This document shows positions 15,001-59,572 of a stretch of 64,000 nucleotides of DNA, in pieces. Positions within the stretch are counted from its first letter, which is position 1. Each line of letters opens with the position of its first letter. The position numbers and the translations under genes were made by a program. The notes under the pieces were generated by a model, which was not told the origin of the DNA, searched no databases, and saw nothing but the letters and a program-made list of their open reading frames with translations. Origin of the DNA: Tistrella mobilis (GTDB lineage Bacteria; Pseudomonadota; Alphaproteobacteria; Tistrellales; Tistrellaceae); NCBI RefSeq assembly GCF_039634785.1, contig NZ_JBBIAB010000001.1:434001-498000 (forward strand), written 5' to 3'.

Positions 15001-15204
15001 AAGGTGCGCCTGCTCCGCGACGACGTGGTCATCCACGAGGGCTCGCTCAGCTCGCTCAAGCGCTTCAAGGACGATGTCCGCGAAGTGCGGGCCGGCCAGG
15101 AATGCGGTATGGCCTTCGAGAACTATCAGGATCTGCGTGCCGGCGACGTCATCGAGGCCTACGAGGTCGAAGAGATCGCCGCCGAGCTCAAGAGCCCGGT
15201 CTGA
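12091..15204 (+). CDS. infB: translation initiation factor IF-2
   Basis: GTPase that places initiator fMet-tRNA on the 30S subunit and promotes 70S formation. The core is intact: an IF2-N domain (around residue 455), G1 [15 protein letters not shown]3 DTPGHAAF, G4 NKID, domain II and the C2 fMet-tRNA-binding domain (from about 900). The N-terminus is unusual. It has a highly charged alanine/glutamate/arginine-rich coiled coil (about 85-175) and then a proline/arginine/aspartate repeat region (about 185-335) with seven copies of PDFRSGDRP. Such regions are disordered and variable among IF-2s, which explains the length of 1037 residues against 890 in E. coli. Confidence 0.98.
12653..13090 (+). 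repeat. degenerate tandem repeat in infB encoding [18 protein letters not shown]-type units
   Basis: Seven imperfect copies of a ~54-base unit, each with the PDFRSGDRP peptide, separated by GDRPRGDRP spacers of varying number. Synonymous positions differ between copies, so selection on the peptide pattern seems likely. Copy-number change by slippage would be in frame. Confidence 0.85.
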
Positions 15205-15229
15205 GCCGCAGAGCCGGAAACGACCGCGA

Positions 15230-15265
15230 TGCGGGCCGGCCGGGATCCCTCCCGGCCGGCCCGCA
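15230..15265 (+). terminator. perfect 16-bp hairpin between infB and rbfA
   Basis: Arms 15230-15245 and 15250-15265 pair perfectly around a four-base loop. There is no T-run after it, and rbfA follows 40 bases later, so it may be a partial terminator or an mRNA processing/stability element rather than a full stop. Confidence 0.6.
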
Positions 15266-15305
15266 CGCATTCCACCCCCTTCTTTCGATGAACGGCAGGG
15301 AAGCC

Positions 15306-15785
15306 ATGTCCAAACGCGCCCAGGGCGCTGCCGGTCCCAGCCAGCGCCAGCTCCGCGTCGGTGAACAGATCCGCCAGGTGCTGGCGGAGCTGCTGATGCG
15401 CGGCGAGACCCACGATCCTGATCTCGACGGCCGGCCGATCACGGTCAGCGAGGTCCGCATGACCCCGGATCTGCGCACCGCGACCGCCTATGTCTCGCCG
15501 CTGGGCCTGGACAGCGACGGCGCCGACGTGGTGATCAAGGCGCTTGCCCGTTCGGCCTCGACGCTCCAGCGGGGCATCGGCCGGCAGGTGTCGCTGAAAT
15601 TCACGCCCCGGCTGCTGTTCCGGCTCGATACCGGCTTCGACTACGCCGCCCATATCGACCGCCTGCTGGCAAAGCCGGTGATCCGCCGCGATCTCGACGA
15701 CGAGGACGATGCGGCCGGTGATCATGGGGCCGGTGATCATGTGGTCGGTGATCATGTGGTCGGGGATGGCGACCGGGAGGATTGA
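15306..15785 (+). CDS. rbfA: 30S ribosome-binding factor RbfA
   Basis: KH-fold protein that binds immature 30S subunits and helps 16S rRNA 5'-end processing. Family features: QRQLRVGEQIRQVLAELL, ITVSEVRMTPDLRTATAYVSPL, and KFTPRLLFRLDTGFDYAAHIDRLL. The C-terminal tail (from about residue 136) is an acidic repeat, (A/V)GDHx four times, encoded by three 15-base DNA repeats. 159 residues in total. It is followed directly by truB. Confidence 0.95.
   Translation: MSKRAQGAAGPSQRQLRVGEQIRQVLAELLMRGETHDPDLDGRPITVSEVRMTPDLRTATAYVSPLGLDSDGADVVIKALARSASTLQRGIGRQVSLKFTPRLLFRLDTGFDYAAHIDRLLAKPVIRRDLDDEDDAAGDHGAGDHVVGDHVVGDGDRED
15714..15758 (+). repeat. three 15-base tandem repeats at the 3' end of rbfA
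   Basis: Units at 15714-15728, 15729-15743 and 15744-15758 share the core CGGTGATCATG and each contain TGATCA. They encode the acidic GDH repeats of the RbfA tail and lie just before the truB start. Confidence 0.8.
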
Positions 15786-15789
15786 GCGC

Positions 15790-16707
15790 GTGGCACGCCG
15801 ACGCCGTGGCCTGCCGATCGACGGCTGGCTCGCCATCGACAAGCCCGAGGGCATGAGTTCAGCACAGGCGGTCGCGGCCGTGAAACGGCTGACCGGGGCC
15901 GCCAAGGTCGGCCATGCCGGCACCTTGGATCCGCTGGCCTCGGGTGTGTTGCCGATCGCGCTGGGCGAGGCGACCAAGACGGTCGCCCATGCCATGGACG
16001 GCGCGAAGGAATATGTCTTCGACCTCCACTGGGGCGAGGCCCGGGCCACCGACGACCGCGAGGGCGAGGTGCTGGAGACCAGCGATCATCGCCCCGACGC
16101 TGCGGCGATCCGTGCGGCCCTGCCGGATTTCCTGGGTGAGATCGACCAGGTGCCGCCGGCCTATTCGGCGATCAAGCTGGCCGGCCGGCGCGCCTATGCG
16201 CTGGCCCGGGCCGGCGAGGCGCCCGAGATGCCGGTGCGCCGGGTGCGGATCGACGCGCTGGAGCTGCTGACCATCCTGGACGCCGACCATGCCCGCTTCC
16301 GGCTGGCCTGCGGCAAGGGCACCTATGCCCGGGCGGTGGGCCGGGATCTGGCACTGGCGCTCGACACGGTCGGGCATCTGTCGATGCTGAGGCGGACCCG
16401 ATCGGGCGCATTCGGCGAAGCCCATGCAATCACTCTGGAAAAGCTTGAAGCGCTCGTGCATAGTGCCGCGCTCGATACCCATCTGTTTCCGGTCGAGACC
16501 GCGCTGGACGACATCCCGGCGCTGGCCCTGACCGGTCCCGAAGCCGATGCGCTCCGAAACGGGCGCCCGCTCAGGGATATGGCCGTTCCCGAAGGACGAT
16601 TGGTTCGTGCGACGCTCGACGGGCGCCTGGTGGCGCTCGCCCGGGCCGAGGACGGATTGCTTCGTTCGGTGCGCGGCTTCAACCTCGGCGCCACCAGCGC
16701 CGCCTGA
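15790..16707 (+). CDS. truB: tRNA pseudouridine(55) synthase TruB
   Basis: Makes the conserved pseudouridine 55 of the tRNA T-loop. Visible motifs: [17 protein letters not shown], the catalytic aspartate in [22 protein letters not shown], and the C-terminal PUA-like region with [11 protein letters not shown]. The GTG at 15790 is chosen because GGGAGG lies nine bases upstream and the protein then begins with the typical [13 protein letters not shown]. An in-frame ATG at 15766 inside rbfA is an alternative. Confidence 0.95.
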
Positions 16708-33491: not shown

Positions 33492-33916
33492 CCGTTTTCC
33501 GGACCATGATCGTCCTTGCGGCGCTCGCGATCGCCGGCCCCATGACCATCGGTCTCAGCCCGGTTGAGGCCGCCGACACCGAGTTCCTGGGCCAGGTCGA
33601 AGATCTGCCGCTGGCCCCGGGGCTCGCCGAGGACGCGGGGGGCTTTACGTTTGACAAGCCCGACGGGCGTATCGTAGAGGCTTACGCAGTCGGTCGTGTG
33701 ACCGGTGCACAGGTGATGCGCTTCTACCGCGACGCCCTGCCCCAGCTGGGCTGGCGCGAGGTCGGGGGTGCCGCTGCCGCATCCGGTGCCGGCGCCGGTA
33801 TCGCCGCCTTCACCCGCGGGGCCGAGCGCCTGACGATCGACACGGCCGAGCAGTCCTCCGGCCGTCTGGTCGTGCATTTCGTGCTGGCACCTGCAGAGGG
33901 TGCTGCGCGCCCCTGA
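33488..33916 (+). CDS. small exported protein of unknown function downstream of mutM
   Basis: 142 residues. A signal peptide (about 1-29, hydrophobic [16 protein letters not shown], likely cut after VEA) precedes a soluble domain with the pattern [17 protein letters not shown] and [14 protein letters not shown], the latter typical of small periplasmic proteins found beside fpg and crotonase genes in alphaproteobacteria. The ATG overlaps the mutM stop (ATGA), implying co-translation. No catalytic motif is visible. I do not assign a function. Confidence 0.75.
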
Positions 33917-34064
33917 CAGCCAGGCTCCCGCCCCTGCCGGGAGGCCGCCGGGCGTCGGGACGTCAGTCTTCATCGACCGGCTTCGGGACCAGGCAGGCGG
34001 CGAAGGATCCCGCATCCGCCGCCCCGGTGAAGCCGGCGCGGGATCGCGGAGGGAGCAGACCCAC

Positions 34065-34838
34065 ATGTCCTACAAGAACATCCTGGTCGACACGCGCGGC
34101 GCCGTCGGGCTGATCCAGCTCAACCGGCCCAAGGCGTTGAACGCGCTCTGCGCCGAACTGATCGAGGAGCTGAACGCGGCGCTCGACGCCTATGAGGCGG
34201 ATCCCGAGATCGGCGCGATCGTGCTGACCGGCAGCGAGAAGGCCTTTGCGGCCGGCGCCGACATCAAGGAGATGCTGCCCAAGTCCTTCCAGGACGTCTA
34301 CATGGAGGACTTCATCTCGCGCTGGGAGCGGGTGACCCGCTGCAAGAAGCCGGTGATCGCGGCGGTGTCGGGCTATGCGCTCGGCGGCGGCTGCGAGCTG
34401 GCGATGATGTGCGATTTCATCCTGGCGGCCGAGAATGCGAAATTCGGCCAGCCCGAGATCAATCTCGGCACCATTCCGGGCTCGGGCGGCACCCAGCGCC
34501 TCACCCGATTCGTCGGCAAGTCCAAGGCCATGGAAATGTGCCTGACCGGCCGGATGATGGATGCCGAGGAAGCCGAGCGTGCGGGGCTGGTCAGCCGGAT
34601 CCTGCCGGTGGCAGAGCTGCTCGACGAGGCGCTGAAGGTCGCCCAGGCGATCGCCGCCAAGTCCCTGCCCTCGGTGATGATGGCCAAGGAGGCGGTCAAT
34701 GCCGCCTACGAGACCACGCTGACCCAGGGCGTGCGCTTCGAACGCCGGCTGTTCCATTCGAGCTTTGCGCTCGAGGATCGCCGCGAGGGCATGACCGCCT
34801 TCTCGGAGAAGCGCGAGCCCCAGTTCAAGAACCGCTGA
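34065..34838 (+). CDS. enoyl-CoA hydratase (crotonase family)
   Basis: 257-residue crotonase, probably hydrating trans-2-enoyl-CoA in fatty-acid beta-oxidation. The oxyanion-hole stretches [14 protein letters not shown] and [14 protein letters not shown] are present. [19 protein letters not shown] carries the second catalytic Glu region. The ATG is preceded by GGAGGGAG. It ends in a strong hairpin. A narrower substrate assignment is not possible by reading alone. Confidence 0.92.
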
Positions 34839-48450: not shown

Positions 48451-48576
48451 CTCCCCCACATGTTGAGGCCCGGACGCAGGGGCCCCCCGGAAATCCGACG
48501 TCCGCCCCAGCGGGCGGCGCCGGCAGCGAGGGACTCCGCCGACGGAGCGCGCCCCGTAGCTGGAGAGGATTTGAGC

Positions 48577-49674
48577 GTGACGATCAATGCAGGTCTCGAA
48601 GGGATTGTCGTCGCCGAGACGGATCTGTCGCTTGTCGACGGCAAGAACGGCTATCTGGTCTATCGCGGGAACTGGGCCAAGGATCTCGCGATCTCCCGCA
48701 CCTACGAAGATGTGGTTCACCTGCTGTGGCGCGGCCACCTGCCTGACGAACGCGAGAGCGAGGCCTTCCGCGCCGAACTGGCGGCCCGCCGCAAGCTTCC
48801 CGACTATCTGAAGACGATCATCCGGGCGCTGCCGCCCGAGACCGACACCATGAGCGTGCTGCGCACGGCGACCTCGGCGATCGGCGATCGCAGCTTCGCC
48901 TGGCCCCCCACTTTCGAGCAGGCCTCGGAGATCCTCGCCAAGGCGCCGACGATCATCGCCTATCGCAATGCGCTGAACACCGGCCGCGATCCGATCGAGC
49001 CGGATGAGAGCCTCGGCCATGCCGAGAACTATCTCTATATGCTCCATGGCGAGAAGCCGACCCGCGTCCACACCCGCGCGCTCGACGCCTATATCATCCT
49101 GACCGCGGAGCACGGGCTCAATGCCTCGACCTTCACCGGCCGGGTGATCACCTCGACCCGTTCGGACATCGCGTCGGCGATCACCGGTGCGATCGGCGCG
49201 CTGAAGGGCCCGCTTCATGGCGGCGCGCCCTCGGAAGTCGACACGATGCTCGAGGAGATCGGCACCAAGGAGAATGCCGAGCCCTGGCTGCGCCAGCAGA
49301 TCGAGGCCGGTGAGCGTCTGATGGGCTTCGGCCACCGGGTCTACAAGACCATGGATCCGCGCGCCGTGGCACTCCGCCAGGTGTCGGACAGCTTTGCCGG
49401 CGAAGATCCCTGGTTCGACCTCTCGGTCCATGTCGAGGAGACCGCGGTCCGGCTGCTGTCGGAATACAAGCCCGGCCGCAATCTCTATCCGAATGTCGAG
49501 TTCTGGGCGGCGGCGGTGCTGCGCGGCGTGCGCATCCCGACCGACCTTTATACCCCGACCTTCGGGCTGGCGCGCATGGCCGGCTGGTCGGCGCATATCC
49601 TGGAACAGGCCGACAAGAACCGCCTGATCCGGCCCGAATCGACCTATGTCGGCGAGATGCCCAAGGCGTCCTGA
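48577..49674 (+). CDS. citrate synthase family protein
   Basis: Condenses oxaloacetate with an acyl-CoA; 365 residues, the short form shared by citrate and 2-methylcitrate synthases. Catalytic His stretches: LKGPLHGGAPSEV and GFGHRVYKTMDPRA; the aspartate region is in VLRGVRIPTDLYTPTFGLARMAGWSAHILEQ. GVRIPTDLYTP is nearer to the PrpC-like group, but no prp genes are present, so citrate synthase is kept general. The GTG at 48577 follows GGAGAGG at a good distance; the N-terminal GLEGIVVAETDLSLVDG is typical. Confidence 0.9.
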   Translation: MTINAGLEGIVVAETDLSLVDGKNGYLVYRGNWAKDLAISRTYEDVVHLLWRGHLPDERESEAFRAELAARRKLPDYLKTIIRALPPETDTMSVLRTATSAIGDRSFAWPPTFEQASEILAKAPTIIAYRNALNTGRDPIEPDESLGHAENYLYMLHGEKPTRVHTRALDAYIILTAEHGLNASTFTGRVITSTRSDIASAITGAIGALKGPLHGGAPSEVDTMLEEIGTKENAEPWLRQQIEAGERLMGFGHRVYKTMDPRAVALRQVSDSFAGEDPWFDLSVHVEETAVRLLSEYKPGRNLYPNVEFWAAAVLRGVRIPTDLYTPTFGLARMAGWSAHILEQADKNRLIRPESTYVGEMPKAS

Positions 49675-50753: not shown

Positions 50754-51971
50754 TCAGCCCTGCGCGGTCTGGGTCGGCTTCGAGAAATGCACATCTTCGG
50801 GCTTCAGCCCATAGAAGCGCATCGCATTGGGGCCGAAGATCAGATCCTTGTGCGCATCGGGCACGTCGTCGCGCTCGCGGATCGAGCCGAAGGCTTCACC
50901 CAGCTTGCCGCCGGCATAATGGGTGTGCGGGAAGTCTGCGGCCCCCAGAATGCGATCGGCGCCGATCAGATCGACGAAGGCCGGCAGGTTGGCCTCGTCA
51001 CCCTCGACGGTGAAGTAGATCTCACGCTCGCGCAGATAATCGATCGGGGCCTTTTCCGCCGGCCAGACCTCGGCCGCGGGCGTCACCCGCCACTTGTCCA
51101 TCCGGTCGAGCACGGTGGGGAACCAGCTGGCGCCACCTTCCAGGAAGCCGACCTTCAGCGACTTGAAGCGATCGAGAATGCCGCCGCCCAGGAAGCTGAA
51201 GAAGCCGAAGACGATGGTCATCTCGAAATTCAGGATGAAGGCTGCGGCCGGGCTGTCGAGGCCTTCGCCGATGCCGTCATGGGCCCAGCCGACATGGACG
51301 CAGATCGGCAGGCCGACCTCTTCCGCCGCCGCCCAGACCGGATCGAACCGGCGATCATGCAGCAGAACCGATCCGACCGTGCCCAGCACCATCAGCGAGG
51401 TCGCCCCCAGCGCCTTGGCACGATGCACTTCCTTCACCGCCTGATCGGGCAGGCGCATCGGCAGAAGGGCCGCCCATTTCAGCCGGGTCGGCTTCTTGGC
51501 ACAGGTTTCGGCCATCCAGCTGTTATACGACCGCATCAGCGCCGCCTCGAACAGCGGATCACGGGTCAGCGGCTGGAGGAAAAGTGTCGAGTAGATCGTC
51601 GCGACGTCCAGCTGGATCTCGTCCATCTTCGCGCAATAGGCGTCGACGTCGAGAATGCCCTGGATGGCGGTGCTGACCGGCTTCAGCTTCGCATAGTCGG
51701 TGACGATCGGGCTGGCATGACAGGACGCCTGATAGCCCTGCATCTTGGGCCGCATCTCGCCGTCGATCAGCCAGGCATAGTTGCGCTGGGTCCGATGGGC
51801 GATCATGTCGCCGATATGGACGATCTTGGGCCGCCGGTGCCAGTAGGCGCGGTCCAGATGATCAAAGATGCCGTCATGATCCTCGATATGAGAATCGGCA
51901 TCGATGAAGGGGTGTTTCTTCTCGGCCGACGCGAAAGCGCCACGCCGGTTCGGAACGGACTGATAGGTCAT
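50754..51971 (-). CDS. amidohydrolase-2 family metal-dependent hydrolase
   Basis: 405-residue TIM-barrel protein of the ACMSD/amidohydrolase-2 family. Metal-site elements: FIDADSHIED near the N-terminus, ICVHVGWAHDG in the middle, VGFLEGGASWFPTVLDRMD, and the final Asp in ILGAADFPHTHYAG. The HxH of strand 1 is replaced by DSH, as in many decarboxylase/hydrolase members of the family. Substrates in the family include aromatic acids and their ring-cleavage products. The two GTCTCG-type inverted repeats upstream, shared with the MFS pump, suggest inducible control. Substrate not predictable. Confidence 0.85.
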   Translation of the reverse strand: MTYQSVPNRRGAFASAEKKHPFIDADSHIEDHDGIFDHLDRAYWHRRPKIVHIGDMIAHRTQRNYAWLIDGEMRPKMQGYQASCHASPIVTDYAKLKPVSTAIQGILDVDAYCAKMDEIQLDVATIYSTLFLQPLTRDPLFEAALMRSYNSWMAETCAKKPTRLKWAALLPMRLPDQAVKEVHRAKALGATSLMVLGTVGSVLLHDRRFDPVWAAAEEVGLPICVHVGWAHDGIGEGLDSPAAAFILNFEMTIVFGFFSFLGGGILDRFKSLKVGFLEGGASWFPTVLDRMDKWRVTPAAEVWPAEKAPIDYLREREIYFTVEGDEANLPAFVDLIGADRILGAADFPHTHYAGGKLGEAFGSIRERDDVPDAHKDLIFGPNAMRFYGLKPEDVHFSKPTQTAQG

Positions 51972-52010
51972 CGGGCTGCTCCGCCGTGCTGCCTGCCTGA
52001 AATGGCAAAT

Positions 52011-52027
52011 GTCTCGTTCTGCGAGAC
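52011..52027. promoter_or_regulatory. inverted-repeat operator upstream of the amidohydrolase gene
   Basis: GTCTCG-TTCTG-CGAGAC, perfect six-base arms, 40 bases upstream of the amidohydrolase start. It differs from the site at 48159-48175 at only three positions. On the minus strand TTGGCT, 16 bases, TATCAC lies just upstream and could be the promoter. Confidence 0.65.
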
Positions 52028-52173
52028 GATTTCGGGCGATCCACCATTGCGTGATATTGGCCGCCCCGTCCTAGCCAAAAATGAGCACCGCAAACCGGCT
52101 TGTCAATTTTTGCGATCTATTCCACCAGAAATAATCGCCGGAGCCGCGATCCTTCCGGCTTTCGGCGGCAAAT

Positions 52174-52190
52174 GTCTCGTTTCATGATAC
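52174..52190. promoter_or_regulatory. second copy of the inverted-repeat operator
   Basis: GTCTCG-TTTCA-TGATAC. Fifteen bases (GGCAAATGTCTCGTT) are identical to the copy at 52011, while the second arm is weaker. It lies between the divergent amidohydrolase and leuA-like genes. Apart from these sites and the repeat at 52266-52287, the 642 bases 51972-52613 hold no gene I can support. Confidence 0.55.
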
Positions 52191-52265
52191 TTGCGGGGAT
52201 GAATTGCTCGTGGAGGTTGAGAAAACGGGTTGCCGGTTAGATAGCGATGTTTTAGGGTCTTCCAA

Positions 52266-52287
52266 CTGACGGTAGATAATCCGTCAG
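52266..52287. promoter_or_regulatory. inverted repeat over a possible -10 upstream of the leuA-like gene
   Basis: CTGACGG-TAGATAAT-CCGTCAG: perfect seven-base arms flank GATAAT, a plausible -10 element for the plus-strand operon whose first gene starts at 52614. No good -35 accompanies it, which would suit an activated or repressed promoter. Confidence 0.5.
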
Positions 52288-52613
52288 GATAGTCATCGGT
52301 GGGAACGATCGCCAGCAGCATCGCACCGGCACAAAGTCGGGCGAGATCGCGCCGGAAGAGACGGCGGCAGGCGACGGAACCAGGGCAAGTGGCGCAGGCG
52401 ATGCGGCGGGCAAGCCGGCTTTGTCTGCGAAGCGGGGCAGTCGCGAACGGGGGGCCGGCAGGGCCAGGACCTGTCGGCGTGAAGACGCAGACCGGATGTG
52501 AAGTGCTGAGCGGCAGCCGCCGCCATGCGCCGTGGGTGATCCATTGCCCGCAATCCGGTGTGAGGATCAGCCCTGACGGCACGCGACCTGTTCCTTCGAA
52601 GGGAGCATGTCCG

Positions 52614-53819
52614 ATGCATCATGATCTTCCGACCGTCGCGGCCAGCGGGTTTCGGACAGCCAGACTGGTTGACGCCTCTCTTGCCGACGGCCGCGGTGCC
52701 ACGGCACCGACGGCGGAGCGGCTGGACATTCTGCTGGCCCTCGACGATCTGGGCATCGATGCGGCGCTGATCGGTTATCCGGCAGCCCGGCCCGCCGATC
52801 TGGCGCTGCTGGAGGCCAGTCGCGCACGCTGTCGGCAGCTGACCCGCATGGTCTGCACCGCGCTTGCCGATGCGCCGGTCCTGGCGGATCTGCTGGGCCG
52901 GGGCGGGCCGACGGAAAACGGGCCGCCGATCGAGGTCGTGCTGGAATGCGGCACCGATCCGCGTCTGGCCGAGGGTGCGGATCCGGTGGCGCTGCTGACC
53001 GGTGCGATCATCCGTCTGGCACCCCGGGCACCCGTCTGGGTAGAGCTTGCGGCGATTGCTGCAGCCGCTCCCGAAATGCTGCGGAGCCTGGTTCATGCCG
53101 CTCTTGCGGCCGGCGCCCGGGGGCTGATCCTTGCCGATACCACCGGCCGGATGCTGCCGGCCGAGACGGCGGCCACGATCGGCATGTTGCGGGCGATCAC
53201 CGGCCCGACGATCCCGGTGATCGTGGCACCGGCCGACGATCTGGGCCTTGCCACCGCGAATGCGCTGGCCGGGCTTGCCGCCGGCGCCGATGGGGTGCTG
53301 GGCGCCATCGGCGGCTTGGGGGAGCGCGCCGGTCTGGTGCCGATCGAGGAGGTCGCGACCGCCATCCGCTACCGCCCGGATCACGTCCGACTGGATCACG
53401 CCATCGATCTCGCGGCCCTGGTCCGTACGGGCATGACGATCGCGGAAAGGCTTTCGGTCGATCTGGGGCGCAACAAGGCGCTGCTCGGCGACTATGTCTT
53501 CGGAACGGCTGCCGGGCTGCATCAGCACGGGCTGCTCAATCATCCGATCACTTACGAATATCTCGACCCGGCGGATTTCGGCCGCGAGCGGCGGATCCTG
53601 ATCGGTCGCCATTCGGGGCGTGCAGTGCTGCGCGCCCGGCTGACCGAGGCCGGGATCAATCTGGATCCGGCAGGGCTGGAGGCCGTCTATCAGGCGGTGA
53701 TGCGCAGCGCCGATCCCGAACGGTTCAACGACACGGCCGAGCTGGTCGCGCTCCACCGCCGGCTTTCGGCCGGGGATGCGGTGGCAGGCCCTGTCGCCCA
53801 CGTCAGTCAGGGGGCATGA
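52614..53819 (+). CDS. LeuA/homocitrate-synthase-like protein lacking catalytic residues
   Basis: 401-residue member of the DRE-TIM metallolyase superfamily. It aligns by eye along its length with 2-isopropylmalate/homocitrate synthases: GYPAARPADLALLEA, LILADTTGRMLPAETAA, GADGVLGAIGGLGERAGLVPIEEV and GLHQHGLLNHPITYEYLDP...IGRHSGR. Key residues are missing. The N-terminal motif normally DTTLRDGEQ reads DASLADGRG (Arg to Ala24), and the HxHND metal motif reads A205-P-A207-D-D. Metal-dependent Claisen condensation therefore looks impossible. It may be a pseudoenzyme, a binding partner or an enzyme of changed chemistry. AAGGGAG lies ten bases before the ATG; the longer open frame upstream covers the regulatory region. 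Overlaps the next gene by ATGA. Confidence 0.78.
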   Translation: MHHDLPTVAASGFRTARLVDASLADGRGATAPTAERLDILLALDDLGIDAALIGYPAARPADLALLEASRARCRQLTRMVCTALADAPVLADLLGRGGPTENGPPIEVVLECGTDPRLAEGADPVALLTGAIIRLAPRAPVWVELAAIAAAAPEMLRSLVHAALAAGARGLILADTTGRMLPAETAATIGMLRAITGPTIPVIVAPADDLGLATANALAGLAAGADGVLGAIGGLGERAGLVPIEEVATAIRYRPDHVRLDHAIDLAALVRTGMTIAERLSVDLGRNKALLGDYVFGTAAGLHQHGLLNHPITYEYLDPADFGRERRILIGRHSGRAVLRARLTEAGINLDPAGLEAVYQAVMRSADPERFNDTAELVALHRRLSAGDAVAGPVAHVSQGA

Positions 53820-54517
53820 GGACGATGGAAGTAGCGCTTGGCGTACCCGATGACGAGGTCGTCGACGATGCCGAGGTGGATCATGTGCTGGGGGTCATCC
53901 GCGGCGGCGGCCTGACCCTGCTCAAAGCCAATATCGGTTACGGGCTGATCGGCCATACCGAACGGTCGATCCGCCGGATGTACGAGGTGAAGGGTCGGCC
54001 GCTGACCAACCCCTGCATCACCATCGGCAGCATCGATGTGCTGCGTGACCTGGTGATCATGGAGGATCCCCGGCTGCTGGACTGGATCGCCGAGGTGTCG
54101 GAGATGACGACGCTGGCGGTGATCAACCGGCTCAACCCCGACAGCCGGCTGTTTGCAAAGCTGACGCCTCATGTCCGTCGGCAGTGCAGCGAGAACGGCA
54201 CGGTCGCGACCTTCATCCGGACCGGCGCGTTCATCGAACAGCTGGTCGAGAAGGCGCTGGCCGAAGACATCCTGCTGGTCGGATCCTCGGGCAACATCTC
54301 GTCCACGGGTAATCGCTATACCTTCGCCGACGTCCAGCCGCAGGTTCTGGAGGGCGTGGATTTCTGGCACGAGAAAGGTGACGCCAAGTATCTCAACGAC
54401 CAGAAACTGGCGACCAGCATCGTCAACCTGACCAACTTCACCTTCCGCCGCAAGGGCGTGAACCACGAGTACATCGCGGCCAGCCTCGACGCCTTCAGAT
54501 CGCGAACCGGCCTCTGA
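53816..54517 (+). CDS. Sua5/YciO/YrdC-like protein
   Basis: 233 residues with the YrdC fold. GGGLTLLKANIGYGLIGHTE corresponds to the nucleotide entry region, K59-G-R61-P with NP to the KxRP...NP motif, and VGSSGNISSTGNRYTF to the SxN loop. Sua5/YrdC enzymes make threonylcarbamoyl-AMP for tRNA t6A37, and related domains carbamoylate other substrates. Coupled to a LeuA-like gene and a diiron-oxidase-like gene, this copy is probably a specialised paralogue rather than the housekeeping TsaC. The C-terminal ~80 residues (FWHEKGDAKYLNDQKLATSI) are not standard for TsaC. Confidence 0.75.
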   Translation: MRTMEVALGVPDDEVVDDAEVDHVLGVIRGGGLTLLKANIGYGLIGHTERSIRRMYEVKGRPLTNPCITIGSIDVLRDLVIMEDPRLLDWIAEVSEMTTLAVINRLNPDSRLFAKLTPHVRRQCSENGTVATFIRTGAFIEQLVEKALAEDILLVGSSGNISSTGNRYTFADVQPQVLEGVDFWHEKGDAKYLNDQKLATSIVNLTNFTFRRKGVNHEYIAASLDAFRSRTGL

Positions 54518-54627
54518 GATCGGGCCGGTCTCTGACGTCGGTCGTGCGACGGCGACACGGGATGCAGTTTCCAGGGACATGGACAAGTCGGCCCGCCCGC
54601 GGCGGGCTTTCGGAAGGACGATGACGC

Positions 54628-55308
54628 ATGTCGGAATATTTTGAGGAGTTCGACCGGATCATCCAGGCCAACAAGTATTCACGCCACTCCTTCGTGAAGG
54701 AGATCGAGGCGGGCCGGGTGACGCGCGAACAGATGAAGCGCTGGGCGATCCAGAAGTATCATCAGGTCTATCTGCAGAACAGCTGCTACAGCGGCATTCA
54801 CGCAAACAGCTGGCACGAGGACGTCCGCGCCTTCGAAATGGAGCAGCTGATCGCCGAGGAAACCGCAATCGCCGATGGGTCGGACAGCCATTACAACCTG
54901 ATGAAGCGCTTCGCGCTGGCGCTCGGGGCGACCGAGGCCGAGATCCGGGAGACCCCGGTGGCGCCGGAAGTCTGGGATTTCGTGACCTATCTGGTCGGCC
55001 ACTGCCGGAACAATCATTTCGTCTATGGCATCCTGGCGATCTATGTGAACGAAAGCCAGACCTCGGAAAGCGCGATGAAGATGTATCGGGCGCTCAAATC
55101 CGGCTTCCAGCTGGATGATCGTGCGCTCGAATGGTTCACCGTTCATGGTGAAGCCGATATCGAGCATTCGTCGCACGCCAAGGATCTGATCGTGAAATAC
55201 GCCCACGAGGCGCCGAACTTCGAATGGCGCGGCCGGCAGGTGGTCGAGACGGGGTCGAAGATGTGGACCAAGCTCCACGACTTCTACTACGGCCTCGTCA
55301 CCGGCTGA
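54628..55308 (+). CDS. heme-oxygenase-like diiron oxidase (PqqC/TenA/CADD-like)
   Basis: 226-residue all-helical protein annotated in relatives as PqqC-like or TenA-like. Unlike PqqC and TenA it has a complete set of likely iron ligands: E77/E78, H88, E142, H173, D177 and H180, with the HxxxDxxH spacing of heme-oxygenase-like diiron oxidases such as CADD and UndA. These enzymes perform oxidative C-N/C-C chemistry in natural-product and cofactor pathways. AAGGA precedes the ATG; the gap to the yrdC-like gene is 110 bases with no visible terminator, so it probably belongs to the same transcript. Substrate unknown. Confidence 0.78.
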   Translation: MSEYFEEFDRIIQANKYSRHSFVKEIEAGRVTREQMKRWAIQKYHQVYLQNSCYSGIHANSWHEDVRAFEMEQLIAEETAIADGSDSHYNLMKRFALALGATEAEIRETPVAPEVWDFVTYLVGHCRNNHFVYGILAIYVNESQTSESAMKMYRALKSGFQLDDRALEWFTVHGEADIEHSSHAKDLIVKYAHEAPNFEWRGRQVVETGSKMWTKLHDFYYGLVTG

Positions 55309-55322
55309 GACCGGGCCGGGTT

Positions 55323-55358
55323 CCGCCGCGGCGGCGTCGGGGGAGGCCGCCGCGGCGG
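55323..55358. terminator. 13-bp hairpin between convergent genes
   Basis: Perfect arms 55323-55335 and 55346-55358 around a ten-base loop, between the diiron-oxidase-like gene and the ABC permease end (55370). Probably works in both directions. Confidence 0.6.
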
Positions 55359-55369
55359 ATGCCGGATCG

Positions 55370-56155
55370 TCAGGATGTCGCCGGGCTTTTGCCACGCCGC
55401 TTCATCGCCGCCATGGCCAGGGCGACCAGGATCGTGCCGACGATGAAGACGAAGGCCGCGGCGGCGATCGCCGGGCTGATGTTCTCGCGGATGGTCGAGA
55501 ACATCTGCCGGGCGAGGGTGCGCTGATTGGGTCCGGCGACGAACAGGGTGAGGACCACCTCGTCGAGCGAGGTGGCGAAGGCCAGCACCGCACCCGAGGC
55601 AACCCCGGGCATGGCCAGCGGCAGGGTCACCCGCCGGAAGACGGTGACCGGCGAGGCGCCCAGGCTGAGAGCGGCGAGTTCAACCCGCCGGTCGATGCCG
55701 GCGAGCGCACCGGTGACGCTGACCACCACGAAGGGGATCGCCACCACCGCATGGGCGACGATGACGCCCAGATAGCTGCTGGCGATGCCGAGCCGGACGA
55801 ACAGCACCTGCATGCCGACCCCCAGCACCACGGCAGGCACGACCATGGGCAGCAGGAACAGCGTCCGGGCGATGCCGGCGAAGGGCAGGCGGCGGTTGCG
55901 CAGACCGAGCGAGGCGGCGGTGCCGAGCACGGTGGCCAGCAGGGTCGCCCCGGTGCCGATGATCAGGCTGTTCACGATGGAGCGCTGCCAGACCGCCGCC
56001 GTCGCCAGTTCCTCGAACCAGCGGGTGGAGAATTCCGGGATCGGATAGGTCAGGAAGACGCTGGAGGTGAAGGCGAGCGGCAGGATCGCCACAAGCGGCG
56101 CCACCAGGAAGATCACCACCGCAAGCGCATAGAGCAGTTTGAATGCCTTGGGCAT
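55370..56155 (-). CDS. polyamine-type ABC transporter permease (PotC-like)
   Basis: Inner-membrane permease of 261 residues with six hydrophobic segments. The cytoplasmic EAA loop, which contacts the ATPase, is in ELAALSLGASPVTVFRRVTLPLAMPG. The first helix is KLLYALAVVIFLVAPLVAILP. It is the last gene of a four-gene importer (binding protein, ATPase, two permeases) transcribed on the minus strand and starts six bases after its partner permease. Confidence 0.92.
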   Translation of the reverse strand: MPKAFKLLYALAVVIFLVAPLVAILPLAFTSSVFLTYPIPEFSTRWFEELATAAVWQRSIVNSLIIGTGATLLATVLGTAASLGLRNRRLPFAGIARTLFLLPMVVPAVVLGVGMQVLFVRLGIASSYLGVIVAHAVVAIPFVVVSVTGALAGIDRRVELAALSLGASPVTVFRRVTLPLAMPGVASGAVLAFATSLDEVVLTLFVAGPNQRTLARQMFSTIRENISPAIAAAAFVFIVGTILVALAMAAMKRRGKSPATS

Positions 56156-56161
56156 GGGCTG

Positions 56162-57337
56162 TCAGCTCCTTCCCGTGGCAGGGTCGGCCGAAAGCCGGCC
56201 ATAGACCGCATAGAGCAGCAGGGTGACCACCAGCAGCACCAGGCCGAGCGCGCCGGCCATGCCCCAATTGGCTGAACCCGTGGCATAGAAGGCGATGACC
56301 GAGCTGATCATCTGGTCGCCGGGGCCGCCGATCAGGGCCGGGGTGATGTAGTAGCCGATGGCCGTCATGAACACGAGCAGCGCGCCCGAGGCGAGGCCGC
56401 GGAAGGCGAGCGGGAACACCACACGCAGGAAGGCCCGGAGCGGGTTGGCACCCAGAGAGGCTGCGGCCGGCACCAGGTTTCTGGGAATGGCGATCAGCAC
56501 GCTGTAGATCGGCAGCACCATGAAGGGCAGCAGGACGTGGGTCATGGCGATCACCACGCCCAGGCGGTTGAAGATCATCGGCACCGGCGCGCCGACGATG
56601 CCGAGGCCGAGCAGCAGATCGTTGATCAGCCCCTTTTCCTGCAGGATCACGAACCAGGCCGCAGTGCGCACCAGCAGAGAGGTCCAGAGCGGCAGCAGCA
56701 CGGCGGCGAGCAGCAGATTGCGCTTCCAGCCCTCGGCCGCCGCGATCAGCATGGCATATGGAAAGCCGATCAGGGCGCAGGCGATGGTCACCAGGGCGGC
56801 GATCCAGAAGGTGCGCAGCATGATCACCCGGTTGGCCGAAGCCTCGTCGGCCATCGACACCACCTCGCCCGCGGCGTCGCGCTTCAGATCGACGGCGGCG
56901 AGCAGGTGACGATCCGTATAGGGGGAAAGCGCGCCGGCGATCGCCTGCCAGTAGCGGGGTTGATCCCATCGGCGGTCGACCTCGGCCAGGTCGGCCGGCA
57001 TGTCGCCATCCTCGATCGCCCGGATCGTCTTCGACATCAGGGTGCGGAAGCCCGACTGGGCGCTGTTCAGCCGGCGGACCATGTCGCCGACCGCCTGGGT
57101 GTCGGTCGCCGCCGTCAGATCCTCGACGATGGCCGCCTTCATCTCGGGCGTCGGCGGCGACTGACGATCCCAGTCGGCGGCGACCTCGGCGGTGCGGGGC
57201 AGAATGCGCAGCACCGCCGGATCCGACACCGCCTGCGACATCATCGTGGCCAGCGGCCAGAGGAAGAAGATGCCCAGGAAAAGCAGCAGCGGCGCCAGCA
57301 GCAGCGCTGCGGCGCCCTTCGACCCGCCGCCGCTCAT
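56162..57337 (-). CDS. polyamine-type ABC transporter permease (PotB-like) with large periplasmic insertion
   Basis: 391 residues, about 100 more than E. coli PotB. The first helix (LLLAPLLLFLGIFFLWPLATMM) is followed by a polar segment of about 120 residues (about 35-155, rich in Asp/Ala/Arg) before the remaining helices begin at MLRTFWIAALVTIACALIGF. The insertion lies in what should be the first periplasmic loop. The EAA loop is in VPAAASLGANPLRAFLRVVFPLAF. Its ATG overlaps the ATPase gene by four bases. Confidence 0.9.
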   Translation of the reverse strand: MSGGGSKGAAALLLAPLLLFLGIFFLWPLATMMSQAVSDPAVLRILPRTAEVAADWDRQSPPTPEMKAAIVEDLTAATDTQAVGDMVRRLNSAQSGFRTLMSKTIRAIEDGDMPADLAEVDRRWDQPRYWQAIAGALSPYTDRHLLAAVDLKRDAAGEVVSMADEASANRVIMLRTFWIAALVTIACALIGFPYAMLIAAAEGWKRNLLLAAVLLPLWTSLLVRTAAWFVILQEKGLINDLLLGLGIVGAPVPMIFNRLGVVIAMTHVLLPFMVLPIYSVLIAIPRNLVPAAASLGANPLRAFLRVVFPLAFRGLASGALLVFMTAIGYYITPALIGGPGDQMISSVIAFYATGSANWGMAGALGLVLLVVTLLLYAVYGRLSADPATGRS

Positions 57338-58404
57338 GGGGCGATGACCCGGCAGTCGGCCGGGCGGAATTCGGCGAAAACCTCAGTTCCGGGCGCCCAT
57401 TCGCGCGATTTGCGGTCGAGCCGGACGGTGAAGCCATGCGCCCCGCCGTCCAGCTGCACCCTCAGATGGTCACCCTGATAGATGCAGTCGGCGACCCGGG
57501 CCGCCAGGCTGTTGCCGGTGCCGCCCGGGCGCTCCGCCAGCTCGATCCGTTCGGGGCGGATCGACAGCAGAACCTCCTGGCCGGGGACGACCGGTTCGGC
57601 GACCGCGGCGACGACATGGCCGCCGGCGGCCAGGGCGATGCGGGCCTCGGCCCCCGCGCTGTCTTCGACCCGGCCCTCGGCGAGATTGGTCTCGCCGATG
57701 AATTCGGCCACGAAGCGGGTGCGGGGTTCGTCGTAGATTTCGCGCGGCGAGCCGATCTGCTCGATCCGGCCGTGGTTGAACACCGCGATCCGGTCGGACA
57801 TCGTCAAGGCTTCGGACTGGTCATGGGTGACGAAGACGATGGTCAACCCCAGCCGGTTGTGCAGGGCGCGGATGTCGAGCTGCATCTGTTCGCGCAGCTG
57901 CTTGTCGAGCGCGCCCAGCGGCTCGTCCATCAGCACCACCCGGGGTTCGAAGACCAGCGCGCGGGCAAGGGCCACACGCTGCTGCTGTCCCCCGGAAAGC
58001 TGAGACGGTCTGCGATCGGCCAGCGCCGAGAGCTGGACCATGTCGAGCACCCGCGCCACCCGCTCGGCAATCTCGGCGCGGCCGGTGCCGCGCATCTGCA
58101 GCGGAAAGGCGATGTTCTCGCCCACGGTCATGTGGGGGAACAGGGCATAGCTCTGAAACACCACGCCCATATTGCGGCGATGGGGCGGCAGGTCGTTGAT
58201 CGGCTGACCGTCGAGCAGGATGGTGCCGGCCGTGGGGTTTTCGAAGCCGGCCAGCATCATGAGCAGGGTGGTCTTGCCCGAGCCGGATGGCCCGAGCAGG
58301 CTGACGAATTCTCCCTCGGCAATATCGAGGGTCAGGTCGTTGACGACCGTCAGGGCTCCGTACGACTTGCTGATGCCGTCGAAGCGGATGCGAACGTTTT
58401 CCAA
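57334..58404 (-). CDS. polyamine-type ABC transporter ATPase (PotA-like)
   Basis: 356-residue ATP-binding subunit. Walker A LLGPSGSGKTTLLMML, signature LSGGQQQRVALARALVF, Walker B VVLMDEPLGALD and the H-loop FVTHDQSEA are intact. A C-terminal TOBE-type regulatory domain (about 240-356) has LSIRPERIEL. The family imports polyamines, Fe3+, thiamine or 2-aminoethylphosphonate, so substrate remains open. Confidence 0.94.
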   Translation of the reverse strand: MENVRIRFDGISKSYGALTVVNDLTLDIAEGEFVSLLGPSGSGKTTLLMMLAGFENPTAGTILLDGQPINDLPPHRRNMGVVFQSYALFPHMTVGENIAFPLQMRGTGRAEIAERVARVLDMVQLSALADRRPSQLSGGQQQRVALARALVFEPRVVLMDEPLGALDKQLREQMQLDIRALHNRLGLTIVFVTHDQSEALTMSDRIAVFNHGRIEQIGSPREIYDEPRTRFVAEFIGETNLAEGRVEDSAGAEARIALAAGGHVVAAVAEPVVPGQEVLLSIRPERIELAERPGGTGNSLAARVADCIYQGDHLRVQLDGGAHGFTVRLDRKSREWAPGTEVFAEFRPADCRVIAP

Positions 58405-58516
58405 CAGCGTCCTCCAGCTCTGACCGGGTCGGCGCTGAGGCGGGCGAAGGATCGTGCGGGGGAACGATGCCGCGCCGGGCGGGTGTCGCCACCCGCCCCT
58501 CGCGCCGGTCGCGGGC

Positions 58517-59572
58517 TCAGCGCGCCAGCCAGGCGTTGAAGCGCCGGGTCAGTTCCTCGGAATTGTCGATCCAGAAATCGACGTCGAGCGGGATGGCATC
58601 GGCGATATTGGCCGGCGCCGTCGGCAGGTCGGCTGCGTATGTCGGATCGACCATGGCGGCCGCTTCCTTGTTCGGCAGACCATAGGCAATCGTCGCCGGC
58701 AGCTTGATCATGTTCTCGGGCGCGCTTGCGAAGGCGATGAAGTCCTGGCCGGCTGCCGCGTTTTCGGCACCCTTCAGAACCACCCAGCTGTCGATGGCAT
58801 AGATGCTGCCCGGCCAGACCACCTTGAACTGCTTGCCTTCGGCCTTGTTGATGGCGGTGATGCGCCCGTTATAGGCCGTCGTCATCGCCACCTCGCCCGA
58901 GGCGAGCAGCTGCAGCGGCTGGGCGCCGGCTTCCCACCAGACCAGGTTGGGCGAGAGCTCATCCAGCTTCTTGAAGGCGCGATCCACCCCTTCGGGCGTG
59001 CCGAGCACATCGTAGATCTCGTCCTTCGGGACGCCGTCGGCGAGCAGGGCGAATTCGAGCGTATACTTGGCGCCCTTGCGCAGGCCCCGCTTGCCCGGGA
59101 ACTTTTCGACATTCCAGAAATCGGCCCAGGTCTTGGGGCCGTCGGCGAGCTTCGCGCCGTCATAGGCGATGGCGGTGCTCCAGACGATGGCGCCCACGCC
59201 GCAATCGCTGCCCGACTGGGCCAGGAACTTGTCCTTGCCGCCGAGTTTCGCCCAGTCGATGGTCTCGTAAAGCCCGTCGGCGCAGCCCAGCGCCAGTTCC
59301 TCGGCCTCCACCTGAACCACGTCCCAGTTGGGCGCGCCGGCCTTCACCTTTGCCTGCAGCACGCCATAACCGCCATCCCACGATTCGTCCAGCAAGGGCT
59401 TGCCGGTCTTGGCGGCGAAGGGCTTGAAATAGATCTCGCGCTGCGCGTCCTGATAGTTTCCACCCCAGGAAACCACGGTCAGATCCCGGGCGAGTGCCGG
59501 TTGACTTGCGGCGATGCAGATGCCCGCCAGAAATACACCACCGGCCCCGATGTTCCGGAATACGCTCTTCAT
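58517..59572 (-). CDS. periplasmic substrate-binding protein of the polyamine-type ABC importer
   Basis: 351 residues with a signal peptide (about 1-28, GAGGVFLAGICIAASQPALA, cleavage before RDLTVVSWGG). The family 1 extracellular-binding pattern TVVSWGGNYQDAQREIYFKPFAAKTG and the later FWNVEKFPGKRGLRKGAKYTLEFALLADGV resemble spermidine/putrescine-binding PotD/PotF-like proteins. It is the first gene of the importer set. The facing diiron-oxidase-like operon could act on its substrate, but that is only a positional suggestion. Confidence 0.9.
   Translation of the reverse strand: MKSVFRNIGAGGVFLAGICIAASQPALARDLTVVSWGGNYQDAQREIYFKPFAAKTGKPLLDESWDGGYGVLQAKVKAGAPNWDVVQVEAEELALGCADGLYETIDWAKLGGKDKFLAQSGSDCGVGAIVWSTAIAYDGAKLADGPKTWADFWNVEKFPGKRGLRKGAKYTLEFALLADGVPKDEIYDVLGTPEGVDRAFKKLDELSPNLVWWEAGAQPLQLLASGEVAMTTAYNGRITAINKAEGKQFKVVWPGSIYAIDSWVVLKGAENAAAGQDFIAFASAPENMIKLPATIAYGLPNKEAAAMVDPTYAADLPTAPANIADAIPLDVDFWIDNSEELTRRFNAWLAR

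Follow-up and report, generated by a model that had tools for sequence, protein, structure and literature searches.

Genes at the Tistrella locus

We analyzed a stretch of 64,000 nucleotides of Tistrella mobilis assembly GCF_039634785.1 (contig NZ_JBBIAB010000001.1; in our numbering G000:C1:434001-498000), referred to here as the window. Its genes of interest encode a LeuA-like protein, a diverged YrdC-type protein (YrdC1), a heme-oxygenase-fold dimetal oxidase related to CADD (HDO), and a PF04909 protein predicted to be an amidohydrolase-related dinuclear oxygenase (ARO); their positions are given in Table 1. A first-pass annotation had described the first three as a plus-strand triad, and these gene calls were confirmed: the LeuA-like and YrdC1 genes overlap by ATGA at 53816-53819, the HDO gene follows after 110 bases, and Pfam and NCBIfam matches support the family assignments. 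The annotation left out the minus-strand ARO gene, which is a core gene of the conserved unit described below.

None of the three plus-strand open reading frames (ORFs) contains a stop. The ratios of nonsynonymous to synonymous substitutions (dN/dS) between the window's genome (G000) and a second Tistrella genome (G002) are 0.080 (LeuA-like gene), 0.045 (YrdC1), 0.032 (HDO), and 0.017 (ARO). Long antisense ORFs overlap the LeuA-like and YrdC1 genes; homology and the dN/dS values indicate that the plus strand is the coding strand of both. A contig of T. mobilis KA081020-065 encodes a YrdC1 protein with 99.6% identity. A scan of positions 51900-55500 found no sigma-70-type promoter.

Table 1. 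Positions of the genes discussed, in window coordinates
Feature	Position	Strand	Signatures and remarks
ARO, PF04909, predicted amidohydrolase-related dinuclear oxygenase	50754-51971	-	Amidohydro_2; ligands D26, H28, H226, E278, D346, H349
LeuA-like pseudoenzyme, 401 aa	52614-53819	+	HMGL-like and HCS_D2; metal-site residues gone
YrdC1, diverged YrdC/Sua5-family protein, 233 aa	53816-54517	+	Sua5_yciO_yrdC (PF01300)
HDO, CADD-like, without sacrificial Tyr/Lys, 226 aa	54628-55308	+	Haem_oxygenas_2, TENA_THI-4, TIGR04305
Citrate/2-methylcitrate-synthase-like protein, tentative member	48460-49674	+	44% identity to G300 gene near MFS homolog
Facing polyamine-type ATP-binding cassette (ABC) importer: two permeases, ATPase, binding protein	55370-59572	-	Pfam/NCBIfam; neighbor, membership not shown

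Conservation and distribution of the unit

The conserved unit consists of YrdC1, HDO, and ARO, is found in three alphaproteobacterial genera, and is not the triad. (i) A search with the HDO in a class sample of 385 genomes matched 13 genomes at E ≤ 1e-12. Five of these were set apart as carriers of the HDO type, namely, three Tistrella genomes, G367 (8.3e-63), which also has fragments of another copy, and G300 (2.0e-53); the next genome matched at 2.5e-16. (ii) The YrdC1 and HDO genes are adjacent in Tistrella, G300, and G367. On contig 139 of G367 (L021) and in a G300 stretch (L022), a YrdC-like gene (40-41% identical to Tistrella YrdC1) lies directly upstream of the HDO gene (42% identical to Tistrella HDO) and a PF04909 gene directly downstream. 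In L021, YrdC1, HDO, ARO, MFS, and YrdC2 follow one another on one strand, separated by 27, 8, 47, and 17 bases; here, MFS denotes a major facilitator superfamily transporter and YrdC2 a second YrdC-type protein. The order in G300 is intact LeuA-like gene, LeuC-LeuD fusion, FAD (flavin adenine dinucleotide) monooxygenase, YrdC1, HDO, ARO, YrdC2, and HlyD-like gene, and a weaker MFS relative (32%) is found near this cluster in a further G300 stretch (L040). In the second G367 copy, L025 contains the LeuC-LeuD fusion, a YrdC gene, and the start of the HDO gene, and L026 contains the end of the HDO gene, a PF04909 gene, a second YrdC gene, and an HlyD-like gene. (iii) The branching of the four HDO-linked copies in the ARO tree, (G367a,(Tistrella,(G300,G367b))), is identical to that of YrdC1. 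The matching branching and the gene order thus indicate that the three core genes move together.

The PF04909 search of the same 385 genomes yielded 10 genomes at E ≤ 1e-60, all five HDO-type genomes included. These five also scored best for ARO (E ≤ 2.2e-202; next, 3.6e-126), values that are no independent proof of linkage because these same genera supplied the sequences for the profile. The ARO type was accordingly dropped as an exact marker of the five genomes, being partly circular, and the relatives in G031, G161, and G335 are nearly as alike in pairwise comparison.

We compared 53 ORFs of the window selected by script, plus the three genes, with the cluster stretches at E ≤ 1e-20; the LeuA-like and YrdC1 genes were entered manually because the selection had taken antisense shadow ORFs at their positions. 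Apart from the core genes, few ORFs matched. Shared with L021 were YrdC1, HDO, the PF04909 gene, and an additional ORF (33900-34838); shared with the G300 stretches were YrdC1, HDO, the PF04909 gene, the citrate-synthase-like gene, and the ABC ATPase; and shared with L025/L026 were YrdC1, the PF04909 gene, and an antisense shadow ORF of YrdC1. The LeuA-like gene fell short of this threshold, with 6.7e-10 in L022.

The three-gene pathway proposed initially thus stands in part: its YrdC-like and CADD-like members are linked in Tistrella, G300, and G367, whereas the LeuA-like gene is not generally linked to them. Close relatives of this LeuA without a metal site were found in Tistrella alone (3 of 336 class genomes at E ≤ 7e-244; next match, 4.5e-39), and the next matches, with 33-34% identity and 133-135 bits, score little above Neisseria meningitidis LeuA (111 bits). 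Among the stretches examined, only G300 has a LeuA gene near the YrdC1-HDO pair outside Tistrella; the catalytic Arg, His-x-His, and Asn of its product are intact, and the Tistrella protein shares 28% identity with this product. The 19 kb of L021 contain no LeuA gene, and L025 begins inside the LeuC-LeuD gene, with the upstream part outside that contig. Upstream of the G300 LeuA-like gene (L022:14924-18401) are genes for a sulfotransferase, a B12/radical-SAM protein, and a prephenate-dehydratase-like protein, which are possible further members of that cluster.

The designation of the Tistrella protein as a degenerate LeuA was right. Residues Arg21, His210, His212, and Asn246 of N. meningitidis LeuA correspond to Ala24, Ala205, Ala207, and Leu241 in both G000 and G002; we take the arginine to be the catalytic position and the His-x-His and Asn to be metal-binding positions of LeuA/NifV synthases. 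Given its dN/dS, the gene is not a decaying pseudogene, and a LeuA relative that is under selection yet lacks the metal site is, in our judgment, uncommon. With these replacements, metal-dependent condensation appears hardly feasible, and the protein may be a subunit for binding or scaffolding.

Among 398 genomes sampled across the phylum, G000 alone gave the HDO type and YrdC1, with weaker matches in G214, G722, G470, and G567. Near kin are mostly without the set: in the G300 family, one genome among 14 has YrdC1, and HDO is present in one genome among 43 in the G300 order and one among 9 in the G367 order. This patchy distribution suggests horizontal transfer. A contig search with YrdC1 returned Tistrella and a stretch (37%) in an archaeal metagenome-assembled genome. 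Plasmid searches with HDO and YrdC1 returned only relatives of about 24-26%. The gene contexts of two of these, in Caballeronia and Variovorax, were inspected; no YrdC or ARO is named in the former, and the latter is described below.

The facing polyamine-type importer, to which the first-pass annotation had tentatively linked the pathway, was rejected as a member of the unit, since it is not conserved with it in G300 and G367: it has no match in the G367 stretches, and in G300 the ATPase alone matches, to another ABC ATPase at 31%. The citrate-synthase-like gene is 44% identical to L040:580-1701, beside the MFS homolog of G300, and no counterpart was found in the G367 stretches. Because citrate synthases are well conserved, its membership is suggestive only.

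Relationships and active-site residues of the core proteins

The best NCBIfam match of HDO is TIGR04305 (fol_rel_CADD), at 109.2 bits and under the cut-off of 200. In all three complete members, six dimetal ligands (E77, H88, E142, H173, D177, and H180) align with the residues that we take, by number, to be the CADD ligands. Compared with CADD, the spacing between the first Glu and His ligands is longer by four residues; the G722 protein also has an insertion there, so this feature is not unique to the HDO clade. According to section 4 of PMC13108848, the dimetal ligand set of the HDO superfamily comprises three histidines and three carboxylates. The closest matches among solved structures are CT610 and further chains of 4-aminobenzoate synthases (PDB 1rcw, 8va9, and 9pj4; E of 4.5e-27 to 2.7e-23), which would agree with a noncanonical p-aminobenzoate (pABA) synthase that serves folate synthesis. 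However, in the three complete members CADD Tyr27 is replaced by Val23, Val, or Thr, Tyr43 by Trp, and Lys152 by Met152, Met, or Val, whereas the comparison proteins of G214, G722, and G470 keep both Tyr and the Lys. PMC11965152 describes Tyr27 and Lys152 as sacrificial residues of the CADD-type pABA synthase; its essential Tyr41 is, by our own reading, CADD Tyr43. Since the sacrificial Tyr and Lys are lost, HDO is not a CADD-type pABA synthase, and a role in folate synthesis is extremely improbable. The CADD-like assignment made at first therefore holds for the fold family and the six ligands, and strict CADD chemistry is excluded by the residue loss; as judged from its residues, HDO is a clade near CADD without self-sacrifice. 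The CADD relatives of G214, G722, and G470 (L027, L047, and L049) are likely pABA synthases in other proteobacteria, because both Tyr and the Lys are kept. A second, distant HDO relative (23% identical) is encoded elsewhere in the window's genome, at G000:C1:68161-68760 (L002).

YrdC1 matches PF01300 at 34.5 bits (cut-off, 25.1). It retains KGR at residues 59-61 and SGNIS at residues 158-162, and the PTxT pattern is absent. The KxR (K59-G-R61) and SxN (S158-G-N160) motifs, for which we assume the roles that they have in TsaC/Sua5 proteins, are invariant in 4 of 4 YrdC1 sequences and are retained in YrdC2. Against TIGR00057 (cut-off, 123.2 bits), YrdC1 scores below the cut-off, with 20.6 in Tistrella and 36.5 in G300, and YrdC2 scores 125.8 in G300, 135.8 in G367, and 121.2 in Tistrella. 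In the tree, YrdC1 forms a clade of 4 rows (support 95/88) and YrdC2 a group of 6 rows that includes one Pantoea relative (support 95/93); the two are separate clades, both distinct from the Sua5 rows of the same genomes. That YrdC2 comes close to or passes the cut-off for threonylcarbamoyladenylate synthases could be explained if the YrdC proteins were extra enzymes of the tRNA modification t6A (threonylcarbamoyladenosine) and neighbors of HDO and ARO by chance. This is very improbable, as a Sua5-type gene is additionally present in 6 of 6 genomes searched, YrdC1 reaches merely 20.6 bits, and the linkage recurs across three genera.

Tistrella YrdC2 is encoded at an unlinked second locus (G000:C16:14637-15335) and is 45% identical to the G300 copy. 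An MFS gene lies 10 bases from it in G000 and also stands beside YrdC2 in G002, and both MFS proteins are 47-49% identical to that of L021. A search with a YrdC2 alignment free of Tistrella rows found a YrdC2 relative at about 1e-82 in all three Tistrella genomes; in G754, which is without the HDO type, the YrdC2 search gave a Sua5-type match only.

Genome G754, reached via the YrdC1 search of the G367 family, contains a sister clade of YrdC1. One of its genes overlaps an isochorismatase-type amidase gene near a D-hydantoinase gene (605.8 bits; cut-off, 393.25; L037:11934-13297 and 15018-16487), a second lies near Hydantoinase_A, Hydantoinase_B, and biuret-amidohydrolase-like genes (L038:6321-18628), and an SBP_bac_8 binding protein is encoded beside the sister clade. 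These neighborhoods point to a possible YrdC role in ureido or cyclic-amide metabolism; they are compatible with ureido or cyclic-amide chemistry and also with catabolism. In Skermanella, YrdC2 relatives occur with HlyD and MFS genes, a context compatible with export. On plasmid pSM-2 of Skermanella mucosa (L051:7603-23230), this YrdC2-HlyD-MFS cassette is accompanied by ketosynthase, acyl carrier protein, reductase, two LeuC-type genes, and one LeuD gene, possibly a further biosynthetic cluster with the same export cassette. The YrdC1 sister clade is also represented in Variovorax: V. paradoxus CP063167 (L053:8315-17557) has two tandem YrdC genes with genes for LeuC, LeuD, an acyl-CoA ligase, a methylisocitrate-lyase-like protein, and two tripartite-transporter receptors. 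On a mobilizable plasmid of Pantoea alhagi (L050:13968-17101), a YrdC2 relative is followed by genes for a hypothetical protein and a putative phosphoenolpyruvate-binding protein.

Tistrella ARO is 42-43% identical to the products of the genes beside HDO in L021, L022, and L026. A profile of four sequences matched best PtmU3 in the PDB (1.1e-28), then 6m1w/8ful-type and 8sm9/8sm7 chains, and then ACMSD. Residues D26-x-H28, H226, E278, and D346-x-x-H349 are present in 10 of 10 aligned sequences, Tistrella ARO included, and PtmU3 has the same letters at all six ligand positions. PMC10811679, the source of structures 8SM6-8SM9, gives the class name amidohydrolase-related dinuclear oxygenases and three carboxylate plus three histidine ligands, and PMC10127204 lists D11, H13, H197, E252, D320, and H323 for LynB7. 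From these residues, the product of the Tistrella gene is predicted to belong to this class; as it has all six ligands, as in PtmU3, AibH2, and LynB7, the unit would pair two dinuclear oxygenases of different folds. The six residues do not mark the system, because they are general to that PF04909 branch; His351 is restricted to the four HDO-linked copies among the ten aligned AROs. These four copies form one clade in the ten-sequence tree (support 92/93), with pairwise identities of 41-45%, except for G300/G367b (79%). An ACMSD-type decarboxylase is disfavored, as ACMSD has His and Phe where this protein has Glu278 and His349. In G335, two PF04909 homologs, with 38% and 41% identity to G300 ARO, are encoded on the same strand with some 500 bases between them (L083:9737-12493). 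They have the full set of six dinuclear ligands, and neither an HDO nor a YrdC relative was found in that 20-kb stretch.

Proposed pathway and comparison with known systems

We lean slightly toward a conserved small-molecule pathway of an export type, in which YrdC proteins would activate a compound, HDO and ARO would modify it, and the MFS transporter would export it. The sequences themselves show (i) the co-localization in three genera, (ii) the preserved HDO and ARO ligands, (iii) the preserved KxR and SxN motifs of the YrdC proteins, (iv) the loss of the CADD sacrificial residues, and (v) the loss of the LeuA metal site; the chemistry is inferred. One half of the pathway, the core of YrdC1, HDO, and ARO, would lie in the window, and the other half, YrdC2 and MFS, elsewhere in the Tistrella genome. 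YrdC2, which is closest to threonylcarbamoyl-AMP synthase, would fix CO2 on an amine, using bicarbonate and ATP, and adenylate the product to a carbamoyl-adenylate-type intermediate; YrdC1 would make or use a similar carbamoyl-type intermediate, perhaps likewise with bicarbonate and ATP. HDO and ARO would carry out, in turn, two O2-dependent steps on an amino-acid-like substrate, and the product would leave the cell through MFS, which some clusters combine with an HlyD-type adaptor. In G300, LeuA and the LeuC-LeuD fusion probably supply a homologated acid precursor. The initial suggestion of an undescribed small-molecule pathway is therefore plausible, although its three genes are not the conserved set, and the evidence allows the proposed oxidation of a carbamoyl- or adenylyl-activated amino acid. 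A more specific version is unlikely, although we put it forward tentatively as a new class of natural-product pathway: an amino acid, CO2, and ATP would be used by the two YrdC enzymes to form a linkage of the ureido or carbamoyl type, HDO and the TIM-barrel ARO, whose folds are unrelated, would remodel it sequentially, and the metal-dead LeuA would be a substrate-binding subunit in Tistrella.

Several observations weigh against the export-type pathway. (i) In Tistrella, the YrdC2-MFS pair is not linked to the core, and the ARO gene is divergent, being transcribed away from the triad at 642 bases from the LeuA-like gene. (ii) The second G367 copy spans two contigs of a 280-contig genome. (iii) The ARO relatives of G031, G161, and G335 are nearly as alike (38-45%), with no HDO or YrdC1 relative adjacent. 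(iv) No Rieske protein was present among the ten Tistrella proteins that were family-scanned or among ten others, although the donor could sit elsewhere, and a neighboring Rieske reductase of the AibG type is an aid in spotting AROs and no strict requirement. (v) Next to the core, we noticed no gene for a nonribosomal peptide synthetase or a carrier protein. (vi) Single-sequence structure predictions had low confidence (predicted local distance difference test of 40 for HDO and 32 for YrdC1) and were not used as evidence. (vii) Uptake and catabolism are suggested by the sister clade of YrdC1 and by the importer that faces the genes.

The main rival, which is possible but rather unlikely, is a catabolic pathway, in which the cell would import a nitrogen compound, such as a ureido compound, a cyclic amide, or a branched amino acid, that would be activated by YrdC and degraded oxidatively by HDO and ARO, with MFS as a resistance or overflow pump. 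Its support comes from the importer that faces the Tistrella genes, from the hydantoinase-type genes and SBP_bac_8 protein beside the sister clade in G754, from the LeuC, LeuD, methylisocitrate-lyase-like, and receptor genes beside the Variovorax YrdC genes, and from AibH1H2, an ARO that acts on 2-aminoisobutyrate in what we take to be a degradative role. However, export-type genes (MFS or HlyD) accompany YrdC2 in L021, L022, L026, Tistrella, and Skermanella, conservation of the importer with the unit does not extend to G300 and G367, and the HDO review (PMC13108848) describes characterized HDOs as mainly biosynthetic.

Each part of the unit belongs to a known family, and the combination looks new. 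Among the literature matches listed, no paper joined YrdC with HDO or ARO, and the terms "YrdC," "amidohydrolase," and "gene cluster" do not occur in the main text of PMC13108848, section 4 of which counts about a dozen validated HDOs among >10,000 members. As families of dinuclear oxygenases, HDOs and AROs are both recent, and few of their substrates are known. The present gene set, found repeatedly in a small number of unrelated bacteria, seems to activate a small molecule before oxidizing it. With one HDO, one ARO, and two extra YrdC proteins, it defines a testable pathway; it could reveal YrdC chemistry beyond tRNA and the known carbamoyltransferases. In addition, the HDO clade, close to CADD yet devoid of the residues that CADD sacrifices, bears on the origin of the self-sacrifice reaction.

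The comparison with known systems can be summarized as follows. (i) With the LeuA/NifV homocitrate and isopropylmalate synthases, the Tistrella protein has in common the HMGL-like barrel and the HCS_D2 domain, and it differs by the replaced metal and catalytic residues. (ii) With the TsaC/Sua5/YrdC threonylcarbamoyl-AMP synthases, the YrdC proteins share PF01300 and the KxR and SxN motifs, and YrdC2 lies near TIGR00057, whereas YrdC1 lacks PTxT and scores far under that model, and both are additional to the genome's Sua5. (iii) HDO shares the heme-oxygenase fold family, as assigned by sequence, and six dimetal ligands with the self-sacrificing pABA synthases CADD and NePabS but has neither the sacrificial Tyr and Lys nor the further active-site Tyr, and its TIGR04305 score is under the cut-off. 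(iv) The AROs PtmU3, AibH2, SfbO, and LynB7/BarH have the six-ligand set DxH, H, E, and DxxH in common with Tistrella ARO, for which PtmU3 is the top PDB match; Tistrella ARO differs from them by its partners, an HDO and two YrdC proteins.

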